Shown: positions 24,862 to 62,958, counted from the stretch's first letter. The stretch: DNA of 64,000 nucleotides from Bacillota bacterium (GCA_003973385.1 QNYK01000107.1:1-64000); one strand, 5' to 3'. The notes: generated from the sequence alone by a model not told the origin. A program made the numbers and translations.

Positions 24862-26148
24862 ATGACCAAATCCAACCGCCATCGCCTAGCAGTCGCGAAC
24901 GCGATTCTCTGTGTGGTGTTGATGTGCCGGCTCGTATCGGCGCAGGCACCTCAACTGGAGATGAGCGATGTGGTGGTCTACCCCGGTCAGGCGGGAGTCG
25001 GAGTCGAGATCTCTCTCACCGCCAGTCAGTCCGTCAGTGGTGTCCAGGTGGGGATCGCAGTCGATCCGGACCGGATTTTCCTGCAGGATCTGGACCTGAA
25101 TGGCTCCGTACTTCAGGCGGTTGCCGTCGAATTCCTCGACACCAGCGTTGACCTCGAAGAAGGAGAGGCGACGCTGCTCGCCATCTTCGACGATTCTGCT
25201 CCTTTCGATCAGGCCTTGCCGTCCCCTTCCAATGCACTTCTCGGAACCCTGGTCCTCGATGCCTCGAGCTGGTTGGTGCCAACGAATGTGGAGCCGATCG
25301 CTTTCGCCAACGGAGTGGGAGAGCCCGCCATCGACACTCTCGTATTCGTCGAAGGCAACGCAGTACTCCCCGATCTGGTCGATGGCTCACTCTCGGTGCT
25401 CTCCCAGAATGTTCTGATCGCCGCTTCCACGTCGGGGCAGGCATCTATTGGTGAGATCGACTACGAGGTCAGTTTACGCGGCTACAACATCGATGATCTG
25501 CAGGGGTTCTCCGCTGCACTCGCCTTTGACCCGACCGTACTTCAGTGTGCTTCCGCCACCATCGATGGAACCATCACGCAGGTTGCAGGTGCTGAGTTTG
25601 TCGAGGGGGTCATCGACAATGATGTTGGATTTGCGGTACTCGGAGTCCTGATGGATATCTTGCCGCCGTATGATGGCCAGGTGATTCCTGCCACAGGAAT
25701 CGAGATGGAGTTCGCGAGGATCTACTTCGATGTGAGCGGTTCTCTGACCGTCTCCCAGCAGACGCAACTGAGTTTCGAAAATGACCTGGGAGTGCCTCCG
25801 ATCAGCAATGTCTTTGTGATTCAGAACCAGTCCGTTGCTCCCGTGACCATCGACCTGACCATCGACATCGCTGTCGATGGAATCTTTCTGCGTGGTGATG
25901 CGGACGGAAACCTGAGGCTCGATCTCTCCGATGCCATCAACAATCTGGTCTTCATGACCAACTCCTGCCCCGCATGCCCGATCCCTCTCTGCCCCAAGGC
26001 TCTGGATGTCAATGACGATGCTCGAATCGACCTCAGCGACGCCATTCATCTGCTCAGTTTCCTCTATCTCGATGGCCCTCAGCCCGCTGAGCCTTACCCT
26101 GACCCCGGAGTCGACCCCACCCCCGACCTGCTGGACTGCTTCAACTAG
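24862..26148 (+). CDS. secreted protein with two cohesin-like modules and C-terminal dockerin-like module
   Basis: A 428-residue exported protein. The signal peptide is residues 1-27 (ending VSA). Two Ig/cohesin-like modules follow (about 30-185 and 186-338); the second carries LPPYDGQVIP and VPPISNVFV. From about 341 there are two calcium loops, DADGNLRLDLSD and DVNDDARIDLSD, each with Asp/Asn at positions 1, 3, 5, 9 and 12 as in dockerins. The Cys-rich linker SCPACPIPLC between them is longer than in relatives. The end is PYPDPGVDPTPDLLDC. It is a homologue of the minus-strand cluster at 35741-43738. It is presumably extracellular or cell-surface; partner and function are unknown. Confidence 0.8.
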   Translation: MTKSNRHRLAVANAILCVVLMCRLVSAQAPQLEMSDVVVYPGQAGVGVEISLTASQSVSGVQVGIAVDPDRIFLQDLDLNGSVLQAVAVEFLDTSVDLEEGEATLLAIFDDSAPFDQALPSPSNALLGTLVLDASSWLVPTNVEPIAFANGVGEPAIDTLVFVEGNAVLPDLVDGSLSVLSQNVLIAASTSGQASIGEIDYEVSLRGYNIDDLQGFSAALAFDPTVLQCASATIDGTITQVAGAEFVEGVIDNDVGFAVLGVLMDILPPYDGQVIPATGIEMEFARIYFDVSGSLTVSQQTQLSFENDLGVPPISNVFVIQNQSVAPVTIDLTIDIAVDGIFLRGDADGNLRLDLSDAINNLVFMTNSCPACPIPLCPKALDVNDDARIDLSDAIHLLSFLYLDGPQPAEPYPDPGVDPTPDLLDCFN

Positions 26149-26984: not shown

Positions 26985-27971
26985 TCAAGGGCGAGGGTGA
27001 TGGCGCGAATGAGCAGCCTTCAGCTGCTTGCGATCGACGTGGGTATAGATCTCTGTCGTGTGAATGCTGGCATGCCCGAGCAGGTGTTGCAGGTGAGGTA
27101 GCGCGTCCGCAGGTACGGGATCAGAGCCTTCTCGGATACTGATCTCTCTCATCTCGGTGTTGTTCTCCAGGATGTGTGTGGCAAACGAGTGACGGAGCAG
27201 GTGCGGGTTCACACCTTGTGAGATCCCGGCGAGAGGAGCCGCTCGCTCCAGCAGAGCATATACGCTGCGCCTGTTCAGTTTTCGCCCGGTGGCGGACAGG
27301 AATAACTGATCATTGAGGGCGGGAGCGTCCTCCAACAGCTGAGATCGGTACTTTTCCACTGCAAGTGCTGCTCTGTCTCCGATGGGAATCAGTCGTACCT
27401 TGTCCCCCTTACCGACGCACCGAACGAGCGGGTACTTGCCATCGGTCAGGAAGTCCCTGCGTCGAAGTCCGCACAGTTCCGAGACTCGCATACCCGAACT
27501 GTAGAGCAACTGAACGATGGCTCGGTCCCTCAGACCGAGGTGCGGATTATTTTCCTCCGTCGCATCGATCAGGCGATTCACCTCGTCGAGAGAGAGAGTT
27601 CGCGGCAGACGCTTCGATTGACGCGGCGATACCAGCAGATCAGTGGGGTTTGCCTCGATCAGACCCTCCTGGACGAGGAAGCGGAAAAATCCGCGGATGG
27701 CAGAGATCCGCCGCCGCTGGCTACTGGCACTGGCGCCCCCTTTCATCAGCCTCTGCAGATATTTCTGGAGGTGTTGGAGCCTGACCCTGGCGGGGAAGCG
27801 GATGCGCAGTTGGCGCATTTCGGCAGTGAGGCTGATCAGGTCACGGCGGTATGCCTCCAGTGTGTTTCTGGCCAGACCTCGCTCCACGAGCAGGTAGTCG
27901 AGCCATCTCTGGATCGGTTCTTGTGGCAACTCATCCGTCTTGATCCCTTGCGAGACACCGCTTCGTTTCAT
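26985..27971 (-). CDS. XerC/XerD-type tyrosine recombinase
   Basis: A 328-residue site-specific recombinase, likely resolving chromosome dimers at dif. The N-terminal SAM-like DNA-binding domain shows WLDYLLVERGLARNTLEAYRRDL. Catalytic residues are Arg in SGMRVSELCGL, Lys in GKGDK, HLLRHSFATH (His and Arg), HLLGHAS (His) and the nucleophile Tyr in TTEIYTHVD. Between HILENNTEM and LQHLLGHAS there is an insertion of about 17 residues (centre REGSDPVPADA) absent from typical XerC/D. No integrase-like neighbours or att repeats are seen, so this is probably the housekeeping copy. Confidence 0.9.
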   Translation of the reverse strand: MKRSGVSQGIKTDELPQEPIQRWLDYLLVERGLARNTLEAYRRDLISLTAEMRQLRIRFPARVRLQHLQKYLQRLMKGGASASSQRRRISAIRGFFRFLVQEGLIEANPTDLLVSPRQSKRLPRTLSLDEVNRLIDATEENNPHLGLRDRAIVQLLYSSGMRVSELCGLRRRDFLTDGKYPLVRCVGKGDKVRLIPIGDRAALAVEKYRSQLLEDAPALNDQLFLSATGRKLNRRSVYALLERAAPLAGISQGVNPHLLRHSFATHILENNTEMREISIREGSDPVPADALPHLQHLLGHASIHTTEIYTHVDRKQLKAAHSRHHPRP

Positions 27972-35740: not shown

Positions 35741-36574
35741 CTACAGGCAACTTTCGTAGGACTCGCAGCCAATGCCTGCTTCACCCGCTGGGTCTGCACC
35801 GCAGTTCGGGTAGGGGGCGCCGGGGGGAGGTCCGGCCAGGAACTGGTGGTTGATCAGGAAGATCACATCTCCGATATCCACCGTGTAGTCGCTATTCGCG
35901 TTTGCAGCTGAACGGCATTGTGGCTCGCTGCCGCCACCGAAGATGTAACTGATCAGCGAGATGGCATCTGCGAGATTCAGACTTCCGTCGTCATTGGCAT
36001 CTCCTCGAAGAAAAGGAGAAGAGTTCACGAAGCAAACCTCTCCCCCCTGAAGGTCTGGCATTGAAGAGACTCCGTCGATGGTCAAGATGTTGTGTATCAC
36101 AGGCTGACCGAGGTTATTGGCGGGCTGGATTGTTGTGCAATATCCAACCAGAGCGTTGTCGGCCGCGGTCTGGAAATGAAACCTGGTGATGGAGGTATTG
36201 AATCCAGGTGCCAGGGTCTGTCCTCCAAATGGAGGGCTGAAATCGAAGATGGCAGCACACGCAGCCCAACCGATTCCCGGCTCGATCTCGTCATTGTTGA
36301 TCGAGGTGAAGAACTCCACCATGTAAGGAGCCAGCAGCAGTTCGATGTCGAGACCAGCCGTGTCCACGGAATCGAAGGTGAAGATGCTGGAGTCCCAGCT
36401 GAGGGCGCACTGGAAGCCCTGCACGCCGATCGAGTTATCGAGTCTGACGATGAGATCGAGCTGGGCACCAGGGATGGCGACTGCGTCGTCTACATGCATC
36501 AGGTCCTGGCCGGAGATCAATCCTGTGAACAACAGGGCGATGGCGAGTGTTGCCGAAAAAATCAAATCACGCAT
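35741..36574 (-). CDS. secreted protein with one cohesin-like module and dockerin-like module
   Basis: A 277-residue exported protein with a signal peptide (about 1-22). One Ig/cohesin-like module follows (VQGFQCALSWDSSIFTF, FDFSPPFGGQTLAPG, GQPVIHNILTIDG). From about 190 there is a dockerin-like module with loops DANDDGSLNLAD and NANSDYTVDIGD. The C-terminus PYPNCGADPAGEAGIGC plus SYESC is a Cys-rich variant of the family tail. ATG 36574 lies four bases after AGGAGG. It is the last of five same-strand dockerin genes; the spacing to its upstream neighbour (91 bases) allows cotranscription. Confidence 0.8.
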   Translation of the reverse strand: MRDLIFSATLAIALLFTGLISGQDLMHVDDAVAIPGAQLDLIVRLDNSIGVQGFQCALSWDSSIFTFDSVDTAGLDIELLLAPYMVEFFTSINNDEIEPGIGWAACAAIFDFSPPFGGQTLAPGFNTSITRFHFQTAADNALVGYCTTIQPANNLGQPVIHNILTIDGVSSMPDLQGGEVCFVNSSPFLRGDANDDGSLNLADAISLISYIFGGGSEPQCRSAANANSDYTVDIGDVIFLINHQFLAGPPPGAPYPNCGADPAGEAGIGCESYESCL

Positions 36575-36665
36575 GAATCCTCCTGGGGGGAGAGGCAGGG
36601 TGGTCACTCTGGCCGGGGATGGCGGCCGGGCTTCCTGGGTTTTTCAGAGTTGCGGTTGCCGGGGA

Positions 36666-38036
36666 TCAGCAGCCGCCTGTTAGTAAGCAATCGAGTGTAT
36701 CGGAAGTCGGGTCCAGCCCACATGAGTTCGGCCCTGGAGCTGGAGGGAATGGTCCGCTGACGAACAGGTAGTTGAGCAAGTAGATGGTGTCGGAGATGTC
36801 GACTCCTCCATCGTCATTGGTATCGGATGAATCCATGCAACTGGGAATCGGCCCACCAGCGAAGAGCCAGTTGACGATATACAGCGCATCGCCGAGGTCG
36901 ACACCCGAATCACTGTTGGTATTGCCCCGCATGAATCCCGGTTGATCGAGGAACTCAACGATTCCGTTTTCCAGTACGGGAACAACTGAAAGGCCGTCAA
37001 GGATGACATAGTTGAGGGCCGGTCCTGCCGTACAGTTGGGATCGCTGGGGGGGCAAGAAGGCAGCAGGTATGAATTGTCGAAGGCGATCTCGGTTGTTGT
37101 CCCGAGCAGCACCGGATTGGCCAATGTGTCAAACTCGAGACGTAGCAGCGTCTGATCGGTTCCTGCGGGCAGAACCTGTCCGCCATAAGGTGGCAGAAAA
37201 TCAAAGATGGCAGAGAAGGTGGCGAGCCCCACACCCGGAGCTACAGCCGGATCCATTGCAGGATAGAACAGTTCGATTCCACCTTGCGCACCGGGACCGC
37301 CAGGCATCGCGGAATCCAGCGTCAGACCTGAGAACCAGTCGTAACCATCGATGGGTTCGTTGAGCGTCAGAATGGTGTTGTCGTAAGAGAGGGAGATCTG
37401 GAAGCCCTGGATCTCGTCGACGTGCTCGTAGCGGACGATGGCCTGGACGCTGCTTCCGGGATAGGAGGCCATGTTTCCGAAGTAGAAGCGGTGAAGGTTG
37501 TTGACGGTGACAGATCCATCGACGAGCTGCGGAGTGACGGAAGCCCCTCCGGAAGAGAGCACGTTCAACACCGGCGGATCGCCGATACCATCGACGAACT
37601 GAAGCGGGATCACCTCGGGAAGCGAGGTGGATTCGATGGAAAAGAGCATCCTCAACAGGGAGTTCGGATCTGCTGGTGAAGCGGGCAAGGAGGCTGGAGG
37701 TAAGGTCACACTGCCGTATCCAAAGATCACTCCGGCCAGAAATGTGCCGGTAATGTTGTCTATGCTGGTTCCTGCGAAATCGGGGTCTGCACCGGCAAGG
37801 AGAGCAGATACTGAAGTGTCTTGAAAATCGATGGAAGCCAGCGTCAACTCTGCGGGATCGAACTGGATCCCGACAGCGAAACCCTCGATCGCCTGATCAT
37901 GAGTTGCCGTGATGAAGCATGGGATATCGAAATCCCCTGCGTTGCCGCTGACCTGATCGATGGTCAGGACATCGGCACCACTGCAAATAGCTGGAATCAG
38001 CGTGATGGACATCATCAAAGAGAGGATGCGTAGCAT
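36666..38036 (-). CDS. secreted protein with two cohesin-like modules and dockerin-like module
   Basis: A 456-residue exported protein. The signal peptide is about residues 1-21. Module 1 (about 22-180) has IEGFAVGIQFDP and GDPPVLNVLSSGGASVTP. Module 2 (about 185-365) has IQGFQISLSYDN, FDFLPPYGGQVLPAG and LNYVILDGLSVVP. The dockerin-like module (about 370-456) has NTNSDSGVDLGD and DTNDDGGVDISD, and the tail ends NSCGLDPTSDTLDC. ATG 38036 lies behind AGAGGAG. A strong terminator sits upstream, at the end of the preceding gene, so this gene needs its own promoter. Confidence 0.8.
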   Translation of the reverse strand: MLRILSLMMSITLIPAICSGADVLTIDQVSGNAGDFDIPCFITATHDQAIEGFAVGIQFDPAELTLASIDFQDTSVSALLAGADPDFAGTSIDNITGTFLAGVIFGYGSVTLPPASLPASPADPNSLLRMLFSIESTSLPEVIPLQFVDGIGDPPVLNVLSSGGASVTPQLVDGSVTVNNLHRFYFGNMASYPGSSVQAIVRYEHVDEIQGFQISLSYDNTILTLNEPIDGYDWFSGLTLDSAMPGGPGAQGGIELFYPAMDPAVAPGVGLATFSAIFDFLPPYGGQVLPAGTDQTLLRLEFDTLANPVLLGTTTEIAFDNSYLLPSCPPSDPNCTAGPALNYVILDGLSVVPVLENGIVEFLDQPGFMRGNTNSDSGVDLGDALYIVNWLFAGGPIPSCMDSSDTNDDGGVDISDTIYLLNYLFVSGPFPPAPGPNSCGLDPTSDTLDCLLTGGC

Positions 38037-38182
38037 CGAGAGTTCTCCTCTTCACACGGGGGGCATCCGGCGTCAGTGCACGGATTTCAACATGCTTCTA
38101 TCGTATCACCGTCCCCCATGTGATCCACATCCCTCACCGATGCTGGTAGGCCCGAGATTTGCCACAGGAAACAAATACCCGG

Positions 38183-38216
38183 AAAAAAATGGACTCCGGA
38201 GGGGAACCCTCCGGAG
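38183..38216 (-). terminator. Rho-independent terminator between dockerin genes
   Basis: CTCCGGAGGG (38194-38203) and CCCTCCGGAG (38207-38216) form a perfect 10-bp stem with a three-base loop. Read on the minus strand it is followed within a few bases by seven T (38183-38189). It lies about 58 bases past the stop of the gene ending at 38274 and splits the dockerin cluster into at least two transcripts. Confidence 0.9.
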
Positions 38217-38273
38217 CACATCGATGTGTCGCGAGTTTGATCAGCAAATCCGTGTTGAGGCCAGATCCTCCAC

Positions 38274-39551
38274 TTACAGCGAATCCGCATCTCCATCGCA
38301 GCCGATTCCGTCACCGGTAGTGGGATCGATCCCTGCGTCCGGGAACGGTGCTGCTGGAGGAGCTCCTCCGGCAAACTGGTAGCTGAAGACGCCTACGGCA
38401 TCACCAACTCCGATCTGTCCGTTGTCATCCAGATCACATGCATCGAGGCAACTGGGAGCAGCGCCTCCCTGGAACAGGTACTGGAGTACAGCAATTCCAT
38501 CGGCGATGTTGACGAGTCCTCCATCGCTGTTGCAATCCCCTCTGACGAAAGGATTGAAATTGACGATGGTGATGGTTCCTGCGACGAGGTTCGGAGTCTC
38601 CTGGTAATTCCCATCGACGATCAAGTTCGTGATAGGAGGAGTTCCAGCACTCGGCAAGAAAATGACATCGCTGACAGTCGGTTCAGTCTGCCCCGTGAGA
38701 TCGCCAATGATCTGGAAGTCCACTGTCATGACTTCCTGGTCATCTCCGATGGGGATGTCGATAGAAGTGTCGAACGCCATGATCAGGCCGGCTGCAATTT
38801 CACCAATTGCAACATTGCTTGAAGTCTCGACGAAATCTGCATTGGCAGCGACGCCAGATGCACTGACTCCGATCAACGAGAGCAACGTCGAATCGTAGGA
38901 TCCAGCGATGGAAAGTCCATCGAGCGGACGAACTGTAGAGACGAGCACCGGCAAGTGTGCTGTTTGTGCAGCGATGCCCATGCCATTTCCGAACTTCAGG
39001 AAGTTCGGGCTGAGTGCAGTGAAACTAGCTCCGAGCCATTCGGGAATGACACTGTCTCCGTTGATGACAACGAGAGTGCTCACACCCGGAGATCCAGCGG
39101 TACAGAAATCGACCGTACTGATATGCCCGACGGAGGCCTCGACCTGGTAACTCACATCGAGTAGTTCGAAGTCGATCACCTGTCCTAGAGAAGCACAACC
39201 GGTGAAGCAGATCACGACACCGTTCATCACCGCATCTGCGGAGATGTTTGTGTTCTCGAAGTCGGGCGGGCTACCGTTCTTGACGATACTGGTGCCGGCA
39301 CCAAGTGCAGTACTCAGCGGTGTCAACTCTGCAGGATCAGAGCAGAGACTGAAACTCCAGCCCTGAATCTCGGCAGGTTGTAGCACATCGAGTTTTGCAG
39401 TGGCCGTGAACATCGATCCACCAAAGACATCCGAACTATCCATGTGCATGAAAAAGTTCGGATCAGATTGAGCCATCGCACTGCGACCCAAGACCACAAC
39501 CATGATCAAGGCCACTGCAACGGTACAGAAATTGCGTACGAAACTACGCAT
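38274..39551 (-). CDS. secreted protein with two cohesin-like modules and dockerin-like module
   Basis: A 425-residue exported protein with signal peptide 1-27 (ending AMA). Module 1 has IQGWSFSLCSDPAELTPL and a Cys pair in VVICFTGCASLGQ; the same CFTGCAS string recurs in the small dockerin protein at 60942. Module 2 has LDGLSIAGSYDSTLLSL and TPPITNLIVDG, but its PPF-x-GQ motif is eroded to DTSIDIPIGDDQ. The dockerin-like module has DCNSDGGLVNIAD, one residue longer than usual, and DLDDNGQIGVGD. The tail is FPDAGIDPTTGDGIGC. AGGAAGGA and a hairpin precede the ATG at 39551. Confidence 0.8.
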   Translation of the reverse strand: MRSFVRNFCTVAVALIMVVVLGRSAMAQSDPNFFMHMDSSDVFGGSMFTATAKLDVLQPAEIQGWSFSLCSDPAELTPLSTALGAGTSIVKNGSPPDFENTNISADAVMNGVVICFTGCASLGQVIDFELLDVSYQVEASVGHISTVDFCTAGSPGVSTLVVINGDSVIPEWLGASFTALSPNFLKFGNGMGIAAQTAHLPVLVSTVRPLDGLSIAGSYDSTLLSLIGVSASGVAANADFVETSSNVAIGEIAAGLIMAFDTSIDIPIGDDQEVMTVDFQIIGDLTGQTEPTVSDVIFLPSAGTPPITNLIVDGNYQETPNLVAGTITIVNFNPFVRGDCNSDGGLVNIADGIAVLQYLFQGGAAPSCLDACDLDDNGQIGVGDAVGVFSYQFAGGAPPAAPFPDAGIDPTTGDGIGCDGDADSL

Positions 39552-39565
39552 GACACATCCTTCCT

Positions 39566-39592
39566 GTTGACGGCACAGGGTTGCCGATCAAC
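39566..39592 (-). promoter_or_regulatory. leader hairpin next to ribosome site of dockerin gene
   Basis: GTTGACGGCA (39566-39575) pairs with TGCCG-A-TCAAC (39582-39592) over ten base pairs with one bulged A. On the minus strand it ends immediately before the AGGAAGGA ribosome site of the gene starting at 39551. It may control translation or mRNA stability; two neighbouring dockerin genes have hairpins in the same place. Confidence 0.4.
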
Positions 39593-39650
39593 CTCGCTTT
39601 TTGTTACCTGCGCATCCTCGAGCGCAGAGGTAGTTCTCGTGGGTTACAGA

Positions 39651-41489
39651 TCAGCAACCCGTATCGTCACTATCACAAACAGGGAGCATGTCCTCCGTGG
39701 GATCGGGTCCGTCATCAAACGGTCCCGGGTCCGGCGGAGCAGTCCCAAACTTGAAGAGCCAGTTCATTCCGAACACTGCGTCTGCGAGATTGATGATTCC
39801 ATCATCGTTAGCATCGCAGGCGTCGGCGCAGAGGATTGGCAGACCCGAAAATTGGGAAGCAATCGTCGTCGCGGAATCGGCGAGGTCTACCTTGTCGTCA
39901 CTGTTACAGTCGCCTCGCTGAAAGATCTCCTGGGGAACCACGACGATGCTGGTGCCGATTCGTTCGAAGTCCTGGACGGAGAGGTAATCGATGACAACGT
40001 TGTTGTAGAGCATGACACTTCCGTTGCCGTTGATGTTGTCGCAGAAGTTGATCTCCTGAGCGACGTTACATTCTGCAGTCTCATCGACGGTGATCTGAAT
40101 ACTGCCAAGGAGCAGTTCTTCAGAAGTCGGTGGCAAGGTCTGCCCTTCGAAGGGCGGCAGGGCATCGAGAAGGATCGCAAGGACCATCTCTCCCGACTCA
40201 CCATCGGAGCAATCGTCATCGACCTGGTGGTTGATGTATTCCGCCCCGACCATCTCCACGATGGAGCCTTCCAGGGAGAAGGTCCCTTCTTCGATGGTCA
40301 GATCGCAGTCGTAGCAAATTGTGATGGTCACACCCTGGATCTCATCGTCAGGATCAGAGTAGCAAAAGCTGAGTGTGCCCGTTTGACCGTGGTACGCGTA
40401 GTTACCCGTGTCCTCCTCGAAATCGATCTTTGCGGTCATGATCGTGTTGTGTTCCGGAGGAGGCTCGATCGCGATACAGGTCATCGATCCTGCCTCGAGA
40501 GATGGAGACAGGGACAGTCCGCCGACAACGATCACATTGTCGAGGAGAGGGTCTCCGATGTAACTGTTGATGGGAGTCAGTGGAGTGACCAGATCTGAAT
40601 CAGGCAAGTAGATGATCCCATTGCAACTGTATCGGTAGGTCGCGATGTGATTGTCGGTCCCGGTGGGGATCGTCTGCCCTTCAAACGGGGGCTGGAAATC
40701 TAGCACGACTCCTATGGTTCCGCCGTCAGCGTAGAGATTTGTGACCTCAAATTCGTTGCCGACAGCCTCGGTCAATGTACCGACCAGGGTGATCTCCTGC
40801 AGGGTCAGTTCGTCGCCCCCGTGGGCGACAGCGATCACGAATCCTTGTACCGGTCCTGAACTGTTGGAGAGCAGCACTCTTGCGTCTCCGATGGACATCC
40901 CGTCCGCCAGGACGGAACCATTTTCTATTCTCAAACTATCGGGTGGAGGTGGAGAAATCGTTACGGTTCCGTCGATGAGCAACAGCCCATCGTTGGCTCC
41001 GACAGAGAGTCCTCCCTGGACGATGATGTTGTCCAGCGTAGGCGAATTGAAAACGCCATCCTGGAACTGCAACTCGGAGGTGATGTCCGAGGTGGAAATG
41101 ACGGAAGGAGTGAATCTCAGCACGGCTATACTGGTGCCTGAGCCTGCGGGGATCTCCTGACCCTCGTATGGCAACTCGGCGTCGAGAACCACACCAAGGG
41201 TCAACCCCCCGGATAGGATCTCCGCCACTACCAGTTCAGCACCGACAGATTCCACATCTGTCCCTTCCACTGTGACTTCCGTTGGGTTCAACAGCGACGA
41301 GTCAAAGCCGATGGCAAGGACATAGCCCTGCGTTCCTGTGTCGCTGTCGAGAGTCACTATTGCAGTGAGGGCCTCGAGGCCCTGAGTATTGGTGTCCGTG
41401 ATGCTGAGAGATTGTTGGGCCTGAACCGGAAAGGTCAGAACCAGAACCGTCCACACAGCAACGAACACCTGCCTGAAACAGGTATCCAT
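39651..41489 (-). CDS. secreted protein with three cohesin-like modules and dockerin-like module
   Basis: A 612-residue exported protein, the largest multi-cohesin member. The signal peptide is 1-24 (ending VQA). Three tandem Ig/cohesin-like modules of about 165 residues each show the same sequence marks: VLDAELPYEGQEIPAG, VLDFQPPFEGQTIPTG and LLDALPPFEGQTLPP, each followed by a DNI/NNV-V--GLS type strand. From about 525 there are calcium loops DCNSDDKVDLAD and DANDDGIINLAD, with a C-terminal PDPTEDMLPVC and final TGC. ATG 41489 follows AGGAGAT. Its architecture suggests module duplication within the gene. Confidence 0.82.
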   Translation of the reverse strand: MDTCFRQVFVAVWTVLVLTFPVQAQQSLSITDTNTQGLEALTAIVTLDSDTGTQGYVLAIGFDSSLLNPTEVTVEGTDVESVGAELVVAEILSGGLTLGVVLDAELPYEGQEIPAGSGTSIAVLRFTPSVISTSDITSELQFQDGVFNSPTLDNIIVQGGLSVGANDGLLLIDGTVTISPPPPDSLRIENGSVLADGMSIGDARVLLSNSSGPVQGFVIAVAHGGDELTLQEITLVGTLTEAVGNEFEVTNLYADGGTIGVVLDFQPPFEGQTIPTGTDNHIATYRYSCNGIIYLPDSDLVTPLTPINSYIGDPLLDNVIVVGGLSLSPSLEAGSMTCIAIEPPPEHNTIMTAKIDFEEDTGNYAYHGQTGTLSFCYSDPDDEIQGVTITICYDCDLTIEEGTFSLEGSIVEMVGAEYINHQVDDDCSDGESGEMVLAILLDALPPFEGQTLPPTSEELLLGSIQITVDETAECNVAQEINFCDNINGNGSVMLYNNVVIDYLSVQDFERIGTSIVVVPQEIFQRGDCNSDDKVDLADSATTIASQFSGLPILCADACDANDDGIINLADAVFGMNWLFKFGTAPPDPGPFDDGPDPTEDMLPVCDSDDTGC

Positions 41490-41505
41490 CTCTATCTCCT
41501 CGCTC

Positions 41506-41519
41506 GCCCCCCTCGGGGC
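41506..41519 (-). promoter_or_regulatory. leader hairpin next to ribosome site of dockerin gene
   Basis: GCCCC (41506-41510) pairs with GGGGC (41515-41519) around a four-base loop, about six bases upstream of the GAGGAGAT ribosome site of the gene starting at 41489. Short but fully G-C. It belongs to the same positional pattern as the hairpins upstream of 39551 and 43738. Confidence 0.35.
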
Positions 41520-41671
41520 CCCCGCAAGCAACTCTTCCCCTTGACGCCGAAAGTACCGACGCAAATACTCTTCCCCTCCGAGCCTGCTGCGGGGCAGGAG
41601 CGGACGGACCCTTCGGGACCGAAGGGCTATTCAAGTCTATTGACAAAAGGTTACAAGTCAATCCGAACGGA

Positions 41672-43738
41672 TTAACAATCGATTCCATCCAGGAACGTTG
41701 GATCTGGTCCCGGAGAGGGGTAGGGGGCCGGTGGAGGCGCAGATCCGGTGAACAGGTGGAGTAAGGTATATATCGGGTCAGATATGTCAAGTCGGCCGTC
41801 GTCATTGGCGTCGCAGGCATCGCGACAGGAGGGAGCCTGCCCATCGGAGTAGATCCAGGTCGCGGTGAAGATGGCGTCCGCAAGGTTCAACGTGCCACTG
41901 GAATCTGCGTCTCCACGGATGAAATCGGGGCCATCGCTGACGACCAGCAACTGGAACAGGGTATCTGTCGCCTGGCCTGCGATCACAACCGAACTTCCGA
42001 CGACCTCGAATCCTGTCACGGCATTGTCCAGAAGCACCGGGGAGTTCCCGATCGCGGACAGGGGTAGGTCAAAGTTGAGGGGAAATCCGAACCCGGTGAA
42101 CTGACTGATGCTGGTGACCTGGCCGAGGTTTTCGACTCCACAGATGAAGGTTCCATCCGAGAAGCTAGCGACTCCGCCTCCCATGATCAAACCAGATGTA
42201 CTCGGTGGAGTGATGACTCCGAGTGGATTTCCTTCCGCCCCATCGAGTGCTTCCATACGACGGATCGAAACTGGATCGGATGCGTTGTCAAACAAGAGCC
42301 AGTCATCGGCGGCTGAATCGTACGTGATGGAAGCGATGGAACCGGAGTTTGCCGGGAAGGAACTCAGCGGGCTTCCGGTCAAGGGGTCCACGAAGGTGAC
42401 AAGACTGCTGTTGGCTCGACTCACGAGCAAGACATCGAGGATCGAGTTGTAGCCGATACCTCGCAGGTTGGGCAAGCCGGTATCGATGATGCGCTTCAGA
42501 ATCAGATTGGAATCGAGAACATGGATCACTCCGCTGAAGGATTCTGTTACGTAGAGATCGTCCATCTCTGCATCGTATGCCAGGTCTCTGGGTCGATCTC
42601 CGGGGAAGGCGACGGCGTCGACGAGGCCTCCTGGTCCGTGAATCAGTAAGCAACTGGCGGACTCGATGAGGTTCCCTACCACTCCCTGGACCTGGTAACT
42701 ATGTGTGACTCCGGTCGCGGCATCGAGATCGGTCCATGAGGTCGCAGATCCTGGCAGGGTGTCAACGATGGCGCCGTTTCTGGTGATCCTGAGCAGGCTG
42801 TAAAGACCTCCGGCACCCGGTCCGCAGTTGCGCCAGGATAGATTCACCGCACCCTCGCCATCGGCAGTGCAGAACAGATCTGCGGGGGGGTAGAAGCCGG
42901 GAACCGTCTGGACGATCTGCAGCAAAGATGAGGAGGTGACCGCCAGCAGGGTTGAAGGGTTACTCCCCTGTGCGATGCCCAGCAACTGATGATCTATCGT
43001 GGAGTCGAATTCGATACCGGAGCACTGTAACTCGCCCGTCTGTACCGAGATCGATCTCAACTCCGCAACACTGGCATCGAAAGCGTCTCCGTAGGTGAAG
43101 TCGAGGAATCCCTGGTTGGTATTGGAAAGTCTGTAGGCAATCCCCATGCCGTATCGGACCTCTGCACCGGGGATCGGCAGGGTGGAAATCACATCTCCAG
43201 TGATCGGGTCGATCTCTATGGCGAGTTGATTGACGGTGTCGCGAGTCCAGAGAGATTCAGACAAGATGTCGTATGTGAGACCCGAGGCACTCCCTGAGAT
43301 CGAGAAGGGGACTGGAGCGCCGATCGCTAGCCCTTGATCACTCATCTCGACCAGTTCCAGGGAGGTCGAGTTGAGAAGCCAGAACGTGTTTGTGGCCTGG
43401 CAGTAGGCGATTCCTGAACACTGAGGTTGAAACAGCGGGGCCACAGCTGCACCGACAGGGTGGTCGATCATGTTGGCGAGAGCCAGTCCCGGGGGGTTGC
43501 TGATCGAGGAGTAGACGCAGATCTTGCCACTGGAGCTGTCAATGACCCACACGGTGTCATTGGAACCATTTCTGGCCACATCGACACCGTTTGGATTCGA
43601 CCCGCAGAGACCCACCTCGATCTGTATCGTACCCGTCTGACCCTCCAGGGGGAGCGTCAGAAGCAGCATCGATAGCACCGAGAATACCCAGAGGCAGAAC
43701 TTGCCTGGAGGGGGGGTGGGGCACAGGTTTGGCATCAT
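41672..43738 (-). CDS. secreted beta-propeller / Fn3 / dockerin-like protein
   Basis: A 688-residue exported protein with an N-terminal hydrophobic signal (about 12-35). Two blocks of beta-propeller-like repeats (about 40-285 and 380-600) show NHL/SMP-style motifs such as PNGVDVARNGSNDTVWVID, PRDLAYDAEMDDLYVTE and LRGIGYNSILDVLLVS. Between them lies a fibronectin-III-like domain (PADLFCTADGEGAVNLSW). The dockerin-like end has DADSSGTLNLAD, DANDDGRLDISD and SPGPDPTFLDGIDC. It is the only family member without cohesin-like modules, so it may be a ligand-binding partner for the others. ATG 43738 follows GGAGAGGA. Confidence 0.8.
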   Translation of the reverse strand: MMPNLCPTPPPGKFCLWVFSVLSMLLLTLPLEGQTGTIQIEVGLCGSNPNGVDVARNGSNDTVWVIDSSSGKICVYSSISNPPGLALANMIDHPVGAAVAPLFQPQCSGIAYCQATNTFWLLNSTSLELVEMSDQGLAIGAPVPFSISGSASGLTYDILSESLWTRDTVNQLAIEIDPITGDVISTLPIPGAEVRYGMGIAYRLSNTNQGFLDFTYGDAFDASVAELRSISVQTGELQCSGIEFDSTIDHQLLGIAQGSNPSTLLAVTSSSLLQIVQTVPGFYPPADLFCTADGEGAVNLSWRNCGPGAGGLYSLLRITRNGAIVDTLPGSATSWTDLDAATGVTHSYQVQGVVGNLIESASCLLIHGPGGLVDAVAFPGDRPRDLAYDAEMDDLYVTESFSGVIHVLDSNLILKRIIDTGLPNLRGIGYNSILDVLLVSRANSSLVTFVDPLTGSPLSSFPANSGSIASITYDSAADDWLLFDNASDPVSIRRMEALDGAEGNPLGVITPPSTSGLIMGGGVASFSDGTFICGVENLGQVTSISQFTGFGFPLNFDLPLSAIGNSPVLLDNAVTGFEVVGSSVVIAGQATDTLFQLLVVSDGPDFIRGDADSSGTLNLADAIFTATWIYSDGQAPSCRDACDANDDGRLDISDPIYTLLHLFTGSAPPPAPYPSPGPDPTFLDGIDC

Positions 43739-60941: not shown

Positions 60942-61817
60942 ATGCGGTGTGAATTGATCCGAGCGCGAATGCGAATCGTGACCCTGGTGGGGCTCTTCTG
61001 CTGCGGTTTCTGGGTGCCGTCGGATGCACAGGTTCTGTTCGAATACCAACCGACCCCTACCGACATCCTCTACGACCTGACCAGCGGGGAGGGGAGCGGC
61101 TCGGTGAGCATTTTCAACGTCGAACTGCCAGCGAGCCTCGGGTTCCCGAACAATGTGCAGGGATGGACCATGAGCCTGGTGCATGATCCCTCCATCCTCG
61201 AAGCCATCGAAATCGACCAGGGGTCTTATATCCAGACCGTCAATAATGGAAACCCTCCGGCTTTCTGGCAGACCTCCATCGAAGCGAACGGCATCACCAT
61301 CGGCGCTCTTTACTGCTTCACCGGCTGCGCAAGTTGCGTCTACGAGATTCCGAAGGAGATCGCTGTCATCAGTTACCAGACCGTCGCGGCAACGCTCGCC
61401 GGGGACCTCGACGGGGAGACGACGACTCTCGTCTTCACACCGATGGGCAACCCCCCGGTGACGAATGTGATGGTGGTGAGTGGCGTCTCCAACCCCGTCA
61501 TCGGACAGGACGGGACCGTGAATCTCATCCCCGCCCTGGAACCGGAGATTGTCCGGGGTGACGCGAATACCAACGGAGTCATCGAGCCTCTCGCCGATGG
61601 AATTACCGCCCTCAACTATCTGTTCTTGAGCGGGACCAGCGTCACCTGTCTCGATGCCCTCGACTGCAACGACGATGCATCGGTCAACCTCGCGGATCCG
61701 ATCCTGCTGCTGTCGTGGGGCTTCGCGATGGGTTCGCCGTTGCCGGCGCCGTTCCCCGATTGCGGAGTGGATCCTACCGATGATCTTCTGTCTTGCGATG
61801 CGAGTGGGTGCCCCTGA
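60942..61817 (+). CDS. small secreted cohesin-like/dockerin-like protein (tandem copy 1)
   Basis: A 291-residue exported protein with signal peptide 1-29 (ending SDA). One cohesin-like module has VQGWTMSLVHDPSIL, LYCFTGCASC and PPVTNVMVVSG but lacks the PPF-x-GQ strand. The dockerin-like end has DANTNGVIEPLAD, one residue longer than usual, DCNDDASVNLAD, and PFPDCGVDPTDDLLSC plus ASGCP. ATG 60942 is chosen because it gives the same length as copy 2. ATG 60969 and ATG 60831 are in frame too, and none has a strong ribosome site. TATGCT at 60789 may be the -10. Confidence 0.75.
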   Translation: MRCELIRARMRIVTLVGLFCCGFWVPSDAQVLFEYQPTPTDILYDLTSGEGSGSVSIFNVELPASLGFPNNVQGWTMSLVHDPSILEAIEIDQGSYIQTVNNGNPPAFWQTSIEANGITIGALYCFTGCASCVYEIPKEIAVISYQTVAATLAGDLDGETTTLVFTPMGNPPVTNVMVVSGVSNPVIGQDGTVNLIPALEPEIVRGDANTNGVIEPLADGITALNYLFLSGTSVTCLDALDCNDDASVNLADPILLLSWGFAMGSPLPAPFPDCGVDPTDDLLSCDASGCP

Positions 61818-62085: not shown

Positions 62086-62958
62086 ATGTTCCGTGTACGA
62101 ATTCGATCTGTAATGCTCGTGGGCCTCTTCTGCTGTGGTTTCTCGCTGCCAGCGGACGCACAGTGGCTGTTCGAATACCAGCCGGCCCCCCTCGACATCC
62201 TGTACGATGTATCGACAGGGGAGGGGAGCGGCTCTACCAGCATTTCCATCGTCGAATTGCCGACCAGTCTCGGATTTCCCAACCCTGTCTGGGGCTGGTC
62301 CTTGAGCATCGGGCATGATCCATCCCTGATCGAACCCTACGATGTCGTTCAGGGGGTTGATGTCGTGGGCATCAACAATGGCAACGGTCCTGACTTCTGG
62401 GCGATCGGCCTCGAACCGGATGGCTTCTTCATCGGTGCTATCTACAGTTTGAACTCCACTGCAAATGGCTACTACGAGACTCCGGCGGAGATTGCGGTGG
62501 CCCACTACCAGACGGTGGCAGCGACCCTGATCGGCGATCTGGATGGAGAAAATTCGACACTGTTTGCCCTCGAGGTGGGCAATCCTCCGGTCGGAAATAT
62601 CGTGGTGGTGGACATTCCTACGGCTCCGACCCAATCGTCCTACCCCGACATTCCGCCAGCGATCGTGACTCTCGCTCCAGATCTGGGACTGGTCCGGGGC
62701 GACGCCAATGCCAGCGGATCGATCGAGCCTCTCGCCGATGCCATCGTCGCCCTCAACTACCTGTTCGTGAGCGCGAGCGGCGTCACCTGTCTCGATGCCC
62801 TCGATTGCAACGATGATGCATCGGTCAACCTCGCGGATCCGGTCATGTTGCTCGCGTGGGGCTTCGCGATGGGTTCGCCGTTGCCGGCGCCGTTCCCCGA
62901 TTGCGGAGTGGATCCGACCGATGATGTCCTGGCTTGTGATGCGAGTGGGTGCCCCTGA
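62086..62958 (+). CDS. small secreted cohesin-like/dockerin-like protein (tandem copy 2)
   Basis: A 290-residue paralogue of the preceding gene, with signal peptide 1-25 (ending ADA), FEYQPAPLDILYDVSTGEGSG, VWGWSLSIGHDPSLIEP and GNPPVGNIVVVD. The Cys pair of copy 1 (CFTGCASC) is replaced by SLNSTANG, so a disulfide is lost. The dockerin-like end (DANASGSIEPLAD, DCNDDASVNLAD, PFPDCGVDPTDDVLAC) is nearly the same as in copy 1. ATG 62086 lies close behind GGGGTGA. It belongs to the secreted family at 35741-43738 by its C-terminus. Confidence 0.78.
   Translation: MFRVRIRSVMLVGLFCCGFSLPADAQWLFEYQPAPLDILYDVSTGEGSGSTSISIVELPTSLGFPNPVWGWSLSIGHDPSLIEPYDVVQGVDVVGINNGNGPDFWAIGLEPDGFFIGAIYSLNSTANGYYETPAEIAVAHYQTVAATLIGDLDGENSTLFALEVGNPPVGNIVVVDIPTAPTQSSYPDIPPAIVTLAPDLGLVRGDANASGSIEPLADAIVALNYLFVSASGVTCLDALDCNDDASVNLADPVMLLAWGFAMGSPLPAPFPDCGVDPTDDVLACDASGCP

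Follow-up and report, generated by a model that had tools for sequence, protein, structure and literature searches.

Cohesins and dockerins are known chiefly as the paired connectors of cellulosomes, the machines that digest cellulose. The hierarchy of a cellulosome is maintained by distinct dockerin types; most non-cellulosomal cases are hypothetical. One such hypothetical case is the "planctosome" proposed for the freshwater Nemodlikiaceae, which belong to the Phycisphaerae (Andrei et al. 2019, PMC6461901). There, cohesins and dockerins occur in a planctomycete without cellulose degradation, M12B peptidases, P-domains and HYR domains are found among the carriers, and the complex is small, with a lamin-tail protein bearing one cohesin as its anchor (PMC6461901). 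For ANME archaea, the part of the published account used here (PMC9012536) describes proteins of these non-cellulolytic organisms that combine a dockerin with up to five cohesins on one polypeptide, the cargo being commonly solute-binding proteins and including some S-layer proteins. In a non-clostridial bacterium, Ca. Stygibacter of the Cloacimonadota, dockerin-tagged peptidases accompany a cohesin scaffold, a scaffoldin of 3,755 residues that has a CBM and is attached by its C-terminal domain, and glycoside hydrolases are part of the cargo (PMC8542988). Since proteins with both partners already occur in these known or proposed non-cellulosomal systems (PMC6461901, PMC8542988 and, for the part of it used here, PMC9012536), a polypeptide carrying both is not in itself new.

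Here we describe a cluster of five genes in a 64,000-nucleotide stretch of planctomycete DNA (the window, which denotes this whole stretch throughout). We consider it probable that these genes form one conserved core of a surface network that extends across the genome of a Planctomycetota lineage, uses cohesins and dockerins outside a cellulosome, and is anchored by lipoproteins. The planctosome shares with it the planctomycete host, the absence of cellulose degradation and the carrier domains named above, whereas the system described here has two Ig-stalked lipoprotein anchors, about 145 dockerins, 80 cohesins and a conserved five-gene adaptor cluster; one LTD protein was seen among its dockerin carriers, and the anchors that were found are He_PIG lipoproteins. 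Clostridial and ruminococcal cellulosomes resemble it in both folds, in the two-fold symmetry of the dockerin, in adaptors carrying both modules and in a surface anchor that has a cohesin and no dockerin. They differ in that no cellulase set and no long cohesin tandems were found here, in the cysteine-rich extension of the dockerin, and in the anchor, which is a lipoprotein here and an SLH or sortase protein there. The conserved pair of lipoprotein anchors also distinguishes the system from that of the ANME archaea, for which the part of the account used here reports none (PMC9012536). What is new is the scale within one class, the pair of Ig-stalked lipoprotein anchors, the conservation of the adaptor cluster and the cysteine-rich extension of the dockerin.

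An earlier note on this DNA had placed eight open reading frames for exported proteins with a dockerin-type end in the window, and all eight, p1 to p8, are real and found there, the shared end being one module of about 90 amino acids with two calcium-type loops. Five of them follow each other on the minus strand. The first, p1 (36574 to 35741, minus strand), has one cohesin (36032..36475, profile E 3.0e-36) and a C-terminal dockerin (35744..36016, tail profile 129.6 bits); its start was moved from 36607 to the ATG at 36574, which has a ribosome-binding site with AGGAGG upstream. Two cohesins are found in p2 (36666..38036, minus strand) at 37503..37940 (1.5e-32) and 36951..37463 (3.7e-29), the second being above the Pfam Cohesin cut-off, followed by a C-terminal dockerin at 36669..36935 (129.4 bits) with modelled helices at residues 380-392, 400-403 and 413-424. 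Likewise, p3 (38274..39551, minus strand) has two cohesins, at 39018..39419 (2.8e-32) and 38565..38972 (4.6e-28), and a C-terminal dockerin at 38280..38552 (125.9 bits). The largest number of cohesins, three, is carried by p4 (39651..41489, minus strand; start moved from 41564 to the ATG at 41489 according to the ribosome-binding site), at 40956..41384 (4.8e-31), 40476..40898 (4.8e-36) and 39942..40394 (3.8e-27), with a C-terminal dockerin at 39657..39923 (112 bits). The last gene, p5 (41672..43738, minus strand), encodes a protein without cohesin that combines weak NHL-type, propeller-like repeats (18.9 bits, slightly below the Pfam cut-off) with a C-terminal dockerin (41675..41926, 127.2 bits).

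Three relatives lie elsewhere in the window on the plus strand: p6 (24862..26148; cohesins at 24979-25398 and 25450-25869, dockerin at 25885-26145), p7 (60942..61817; cohesin at 61116-61523, dockerin at 61548-61811) and p8 (62086..62958; cohesin at 62248-62613, dockerin at 62689-62952), the last being a paralogue of p7. Thus p1 to p8 have 1, 2, 2, 3, 0, 2, 1 and 1 cohesins, respectively, and the module profile bears out the claim that every window protein except the propeller protein p5 carries cohesin-like modules. No NCBIfam model covers proteins of the p1-p8 type.

The eight tails of the window align over about 90 residues with 11 invariant columns. When the tail profile was compared with the PDB, dockerins ranked first (CelS, family-48 and other cellulosomal ones; best value 2.7e-5). 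Each window protein taken alone scores under the cut-off of Pfam Dockerin_1 (PF00404), and the dockerin assignment in the window therefore rests on the tail profile; about 30 copies in the genome do pass this cut-off, the best with 8.5e-10. The duplicated calcium-loop and helix repeats of type I dockerins are present, as judged by the motifs, the half profiles and the helices of the p2 model. In 142 copies, the loops read D-x-N-x-D-G ... D in both halves, with the final Asp of each loop kept in 100% of copies, and four cysteines are kept in 98, 77, 99 and 98%, of which three lie past the usual dockerin, in an extension at the C-terminus. The two halves are nearly identical, with a mean Jensen–Shannon divergence of 0.06 at an offset of 33 and of 0.54-0.66 at all other offsets tried. 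In known dockerins, such two-fold symmetric halves provide two equivalent cohesin-binding faces (PMC5429695, PMC8063739).

As for the partner module, p2 passes Pfam Cohesin (PF00963) with 29.6 bits at a cut-off of 24.1, and single modules often fall under it; used as a counter over the genome, the Pfam model finds only 6 weak places and a purpose-built profile 80. In a comparison of the cohesin module profile with the PDB, 23 of 24 matches were cohesins (best 1.7e-5). Structure prediction, which had been put forward as a check, was run on p2: the single-chain AlphaFold model, made with 31 homologues, has a mean pLDDT of 87, and its best fold matches in the PDB are cohesins, with a target-normalised TM score for single modules of up to 0.82. 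The modules of p2 are thus predicted to have the jelly-roll beta-sandwich fold of cohesins. Identity to the first module of the alignment is 15-36%, and, given this divergence, some cohesins may have lost binding.

The genes around all matches of the tail profile in the genome were read, and the whole genome was searched by profile. In this genome of 2.98 Mb (92% complete), the tail profile has 145 matches, of which 140 score at least 69 bits, and the tails in the window are therefore not due to chance. Dockerins are about 2.6 times as dense in the window as in the genome at large, where 64 kb contain 3.1 on average. The three relatives outside the cluster thus exist as had been noted, and the scale was understated, since they are part of a set of about 145. 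A signal-like N-terminus is found on 131 of the 145 carriers; of the remaining 14, 8 are truncated at the end of a contig. The joining of both partner families on single polypeptides, claimed for the window on seven proteins, holds for 51 of the dockerin proteins genome-wide, which together have 77 cohesins, one to three each; about 20 proteins have two or three.

The remaining carriers, about two thirds, are without cohesin and resemble enzymes or adhesins. The Pfam domains on the dockerin carriers as a whole include FG-GAP, P-domain, HYR, PKD, cadherin and lectin domains. Among the enzymes are peptidases of families M4, M9, S8 and M12B, so that the extracellular peptidases with cohesin or dockerin that characterize the planctosome are also present here, together with trypsin-like peptidases, phosphatases, a sulfatase, esterases and endonuclease I; further carriers are di-haem peroxidases, penicillin amidase and glucose/sorbosone dehydrogenase. 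Several di-haem peroxidases of the MauG type and cytochrome-like proteins bear the dockerin (L036/L111, L099/L114 and others), and redox proteins may belong to the surface layer.

This cargo bears on whether the genes could encode a cellulosome or another polysaccharide-degrading complex, whose connector families would be identical. One carrier does have a rhamnogalacturonan lyase-type sheet domain and another a cellulose-binding-protein C-terminal domain, yet GH9 is absent from the genome in a search whose positive control responded, no glycoside hydrolase family is among the Pfam families listed for the carriers, and cohesins never form a long tandem, the maximum being three per protein. We therefore rejected a cellulosome on its cargo, as read from the absence of GH9 and from the Pfam tables of the carriers, and regard such a complex as very improbable; the earlier statement that no cellulase or other glycoside hydrolase is nearby agrees with both observations. 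CBMs were likewise not among the Pfam families listed for the carriers, and a genome search for GH48 gave no match, its control being silent as well. For the larger sets of carriers these lists run to 25 families, and most members of such sets were also scanned in smaller groups.

The position of the dockerin-type module within its carriers is informative. It is C-terminal in nearly all complete genes; seven copies, however, directly follow the signal peptide, an eighth is internal, and the protein L096 (contig C101) has a dockerin at both ends with a cohesin in between. The candidate role of a pure C-terminal sorting signal is weakened by these placements, and the eight N-terminal or internal copies therefore argue for a module. 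A broader possibility is that the module is a tag for surface attachment or export, recognized by a receptor other than a cohesin in the manner of the C-terminal domains of type IX substrates, with the cohesin-like sandwiches serving as structural spacers. We consider this unlikely. The great diversity of the exported proteins that bear the module, mostly at the extreme C-terminus, would fit a tag, as would the majority of carriers without cohesin and a cysteine-rich C-terminal extension that exceeds ordinary dockerins. A tag would be expected neither directly after the signal peptide, inside a protein or twice in one protein, nor in company with a cohesin family that tracks it across genomes; moreover, cohesin proteins without dockerin are lipoproteins, barring contig-cut ends and one N-terminally cut protein. 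A search for the type IX protein SprA returned nothing, and its positive control was silent too.

In the cohesin–dockerin network that we favor, some 50 of the approximately 145 dockerin proteins (p1-p4, p6-p8 and about 40 others) would be adaptor scaffoldins with one to three cohesins, and the remaining carriers, i.e., proteases, phosphatases, esterases, haem peroxidases, lectins and adhesion-repeat proteins, would be cargo. The dockerin of a cargo protein would plug into the cohesin of an adaptor, probably with calcium, adaptors would bind each other in the same way and finally the cohesins of the anchors, and proteins with two or three cohesins (p2, p3, p4, p6) would branch the chain. Much of the protein layer at the cell surface would be joined in this way. 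In 40 of the 51 proteins, only 3-9 residues separate the dockerin from the last cohesin, and a dockerin so close to its own cohesin is unlikely to dock within the same molecule; docking would be expected to join different molecules into chains or a mesh. Co-occurrence of both families on one polypeptide or in one class does not prove docking.

The same short linkers could also be taken to mean that cohesin and dockerin form a rigid pair, comparable to an X-module and its dockerin, whose action is local and limited to small complexes, with no surface mesh. Proteins with a single cohesin, which are common, would suit such an arrangement, whereas the roughly 20 proteins with two or three cohesins and the conservation of two long-stalked anchors would not, and we find it improbable. 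Separate dockerin types for adaptors and for cargo were considered and rejected: the dockerin tree does not divide cleanly into carriers with and carriers without cohesin (30 label changes, compared to 41 for shuffled labels). This departure from the cellulosome counts against the network.

The network would be tied to the outer membrane by two adjacent lipoproteins, whose Ig-like stalks differ greatly in length. Of the cohesin places in the genome that lie off dockerin open reading frames, only one (C36:1666-3084) is not truncated by a contig end. This gene encodes the short anchor, a predicted lipoprotein of 473 residues with a signal ending in ATIGGC, three He_PIG Ig-like repeats, a C-terminal cohesin and no dockerin. 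Another 13 genomes of the family have an orthologue of it (41-75% identity), and the lipobox GC is kept in all nine sequences that were aligned. Adjoining it is the gene of a long lipoprotein with 15-30 He_PIG repeats, which has a terminal cohesin in relatives and no dockerin. In the genome under study this gene (L107, C36:1-1600) runs off the contig, and its cohesin is seen only in relatives, where the protein has between about 1000 and 2986 residues (including L235 of genome G007). Downstream of the anchors, relatives usually have a cohesin–dockerin gene. The cohesins of the anchors form one clade in the tree, separate from other cohesins. A fold search with the anchor model, again of a single chain, was swamped by the Ig repeats and returned Ig-like and cadherin proteins, and the assignment of the anchor cohesin therefore relies on sequence.

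A better assembled relative, G008, has 79 cohesins on 47 open reading frames and 126 dockerins, and 41 of the 47 also carry a dockerin. The six that do not comprise the two anchors, three genes truncated at contig ends and a PKD-repeat protein. The latter (L247, contig C1) has a terminal cohesin and no dockerin, its N-terminus is cut by a contig end, and it is possibly a third type of anchor.

It appears that the surface-anchored cohesin protein of cellulosomes has an analogue here in lipoproteins with a terminal cohesin, their lipobox being a prediction from the protein sequence; we assume that these lipoproteins are exposed at the surface. A gene for Kdo transferase in the window fits a diderm envelope. 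The proposal in the earlier note of a self-assembling or surface-coating system rather than a cellulosome thus stands in part: the lipoprotein anchor fits a surface system and no cellulosome cargo was seen, but the cluster is not self-contained, being one conserved core of a genome-wide set with some 145 dockerins and some 80 cohesins.

A search of related genomes for similar clusters, also proposed earlier, found the five-gene cluster in all seven relatives checked, which belong to at least three genera. The order asnS-p5-p4-p3-p2-p1-hydrolase-metK is kept in all seven, one of which is cut by a contig end within p4, and some of the stretches stop before metK. The module architecture of p1-p5 is the same in the relatives, and identity ranges over 51-80% for p1-p5 (54-69% for p1 in all seven, 54-77% for p2 and 53-74% for p5) and 73-86% for metK and asnS. 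Both module types occur in each of 29 genomes of the class. Outside the class, 30 genomes of the same phylum gave, among the matches listed, no cohesin and one weak tail each in three genomes; match numbers for relatives are to be read as "at least" in both sets. Among named GTDB genomes, the tail occurs almost exclusively in Planctomycetota MAGs. A contig scan with whole p2 as the query gave no match, one with the tail profile gave matches, and a plasmid search with the tail profile gave none.

Both families are present at cellulosome scale in every sampled genome of one bacterial class, with conserved adaptors and a conserved anchor, and the cargo points to protein, phosphate-ester and redox chemistry. 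It is conceivable, though we would put it forward only tentatively, that this entire class of Planctomycetota uses cohesin–dockerin docking as its general means of surface display, with most of its exported surface proteome attached non-covalently. If so, the two long-stalked lipoproteins and the conserved set of branching adaptors would do here what sortases, S-layer domains or type IX secretion do elsewhere. With the first protein pairs named, the role of non-cellulosomal cohesin–dockerin pairs becomes directly testable, and the cysteine-bearing dockerins and their cohesins are a new supply of connectors for protein engineering.

Several further observations were made. Further cohesin–dockerin clusters exist in the same genome, for example one with six genes and a cut seventh on one strand, which includes close paralogues of p4 (L055, contig C46:894-11845), and G008 has a cluster similar to it (L248, contig C15). 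The same planctomycete-type dockerin was found on contigs labelled Proteobacteria or Acidimicrobiia (L140, L146, L153, L167 and L187, i.e., JAFMMO01...; L163), which are probably mislabelled or mixed MAGs. Finally, positions 26985-27971 of the window encode a two-domain tyrosine recombinase of the phage integrase family, probably of the XerC/D type.
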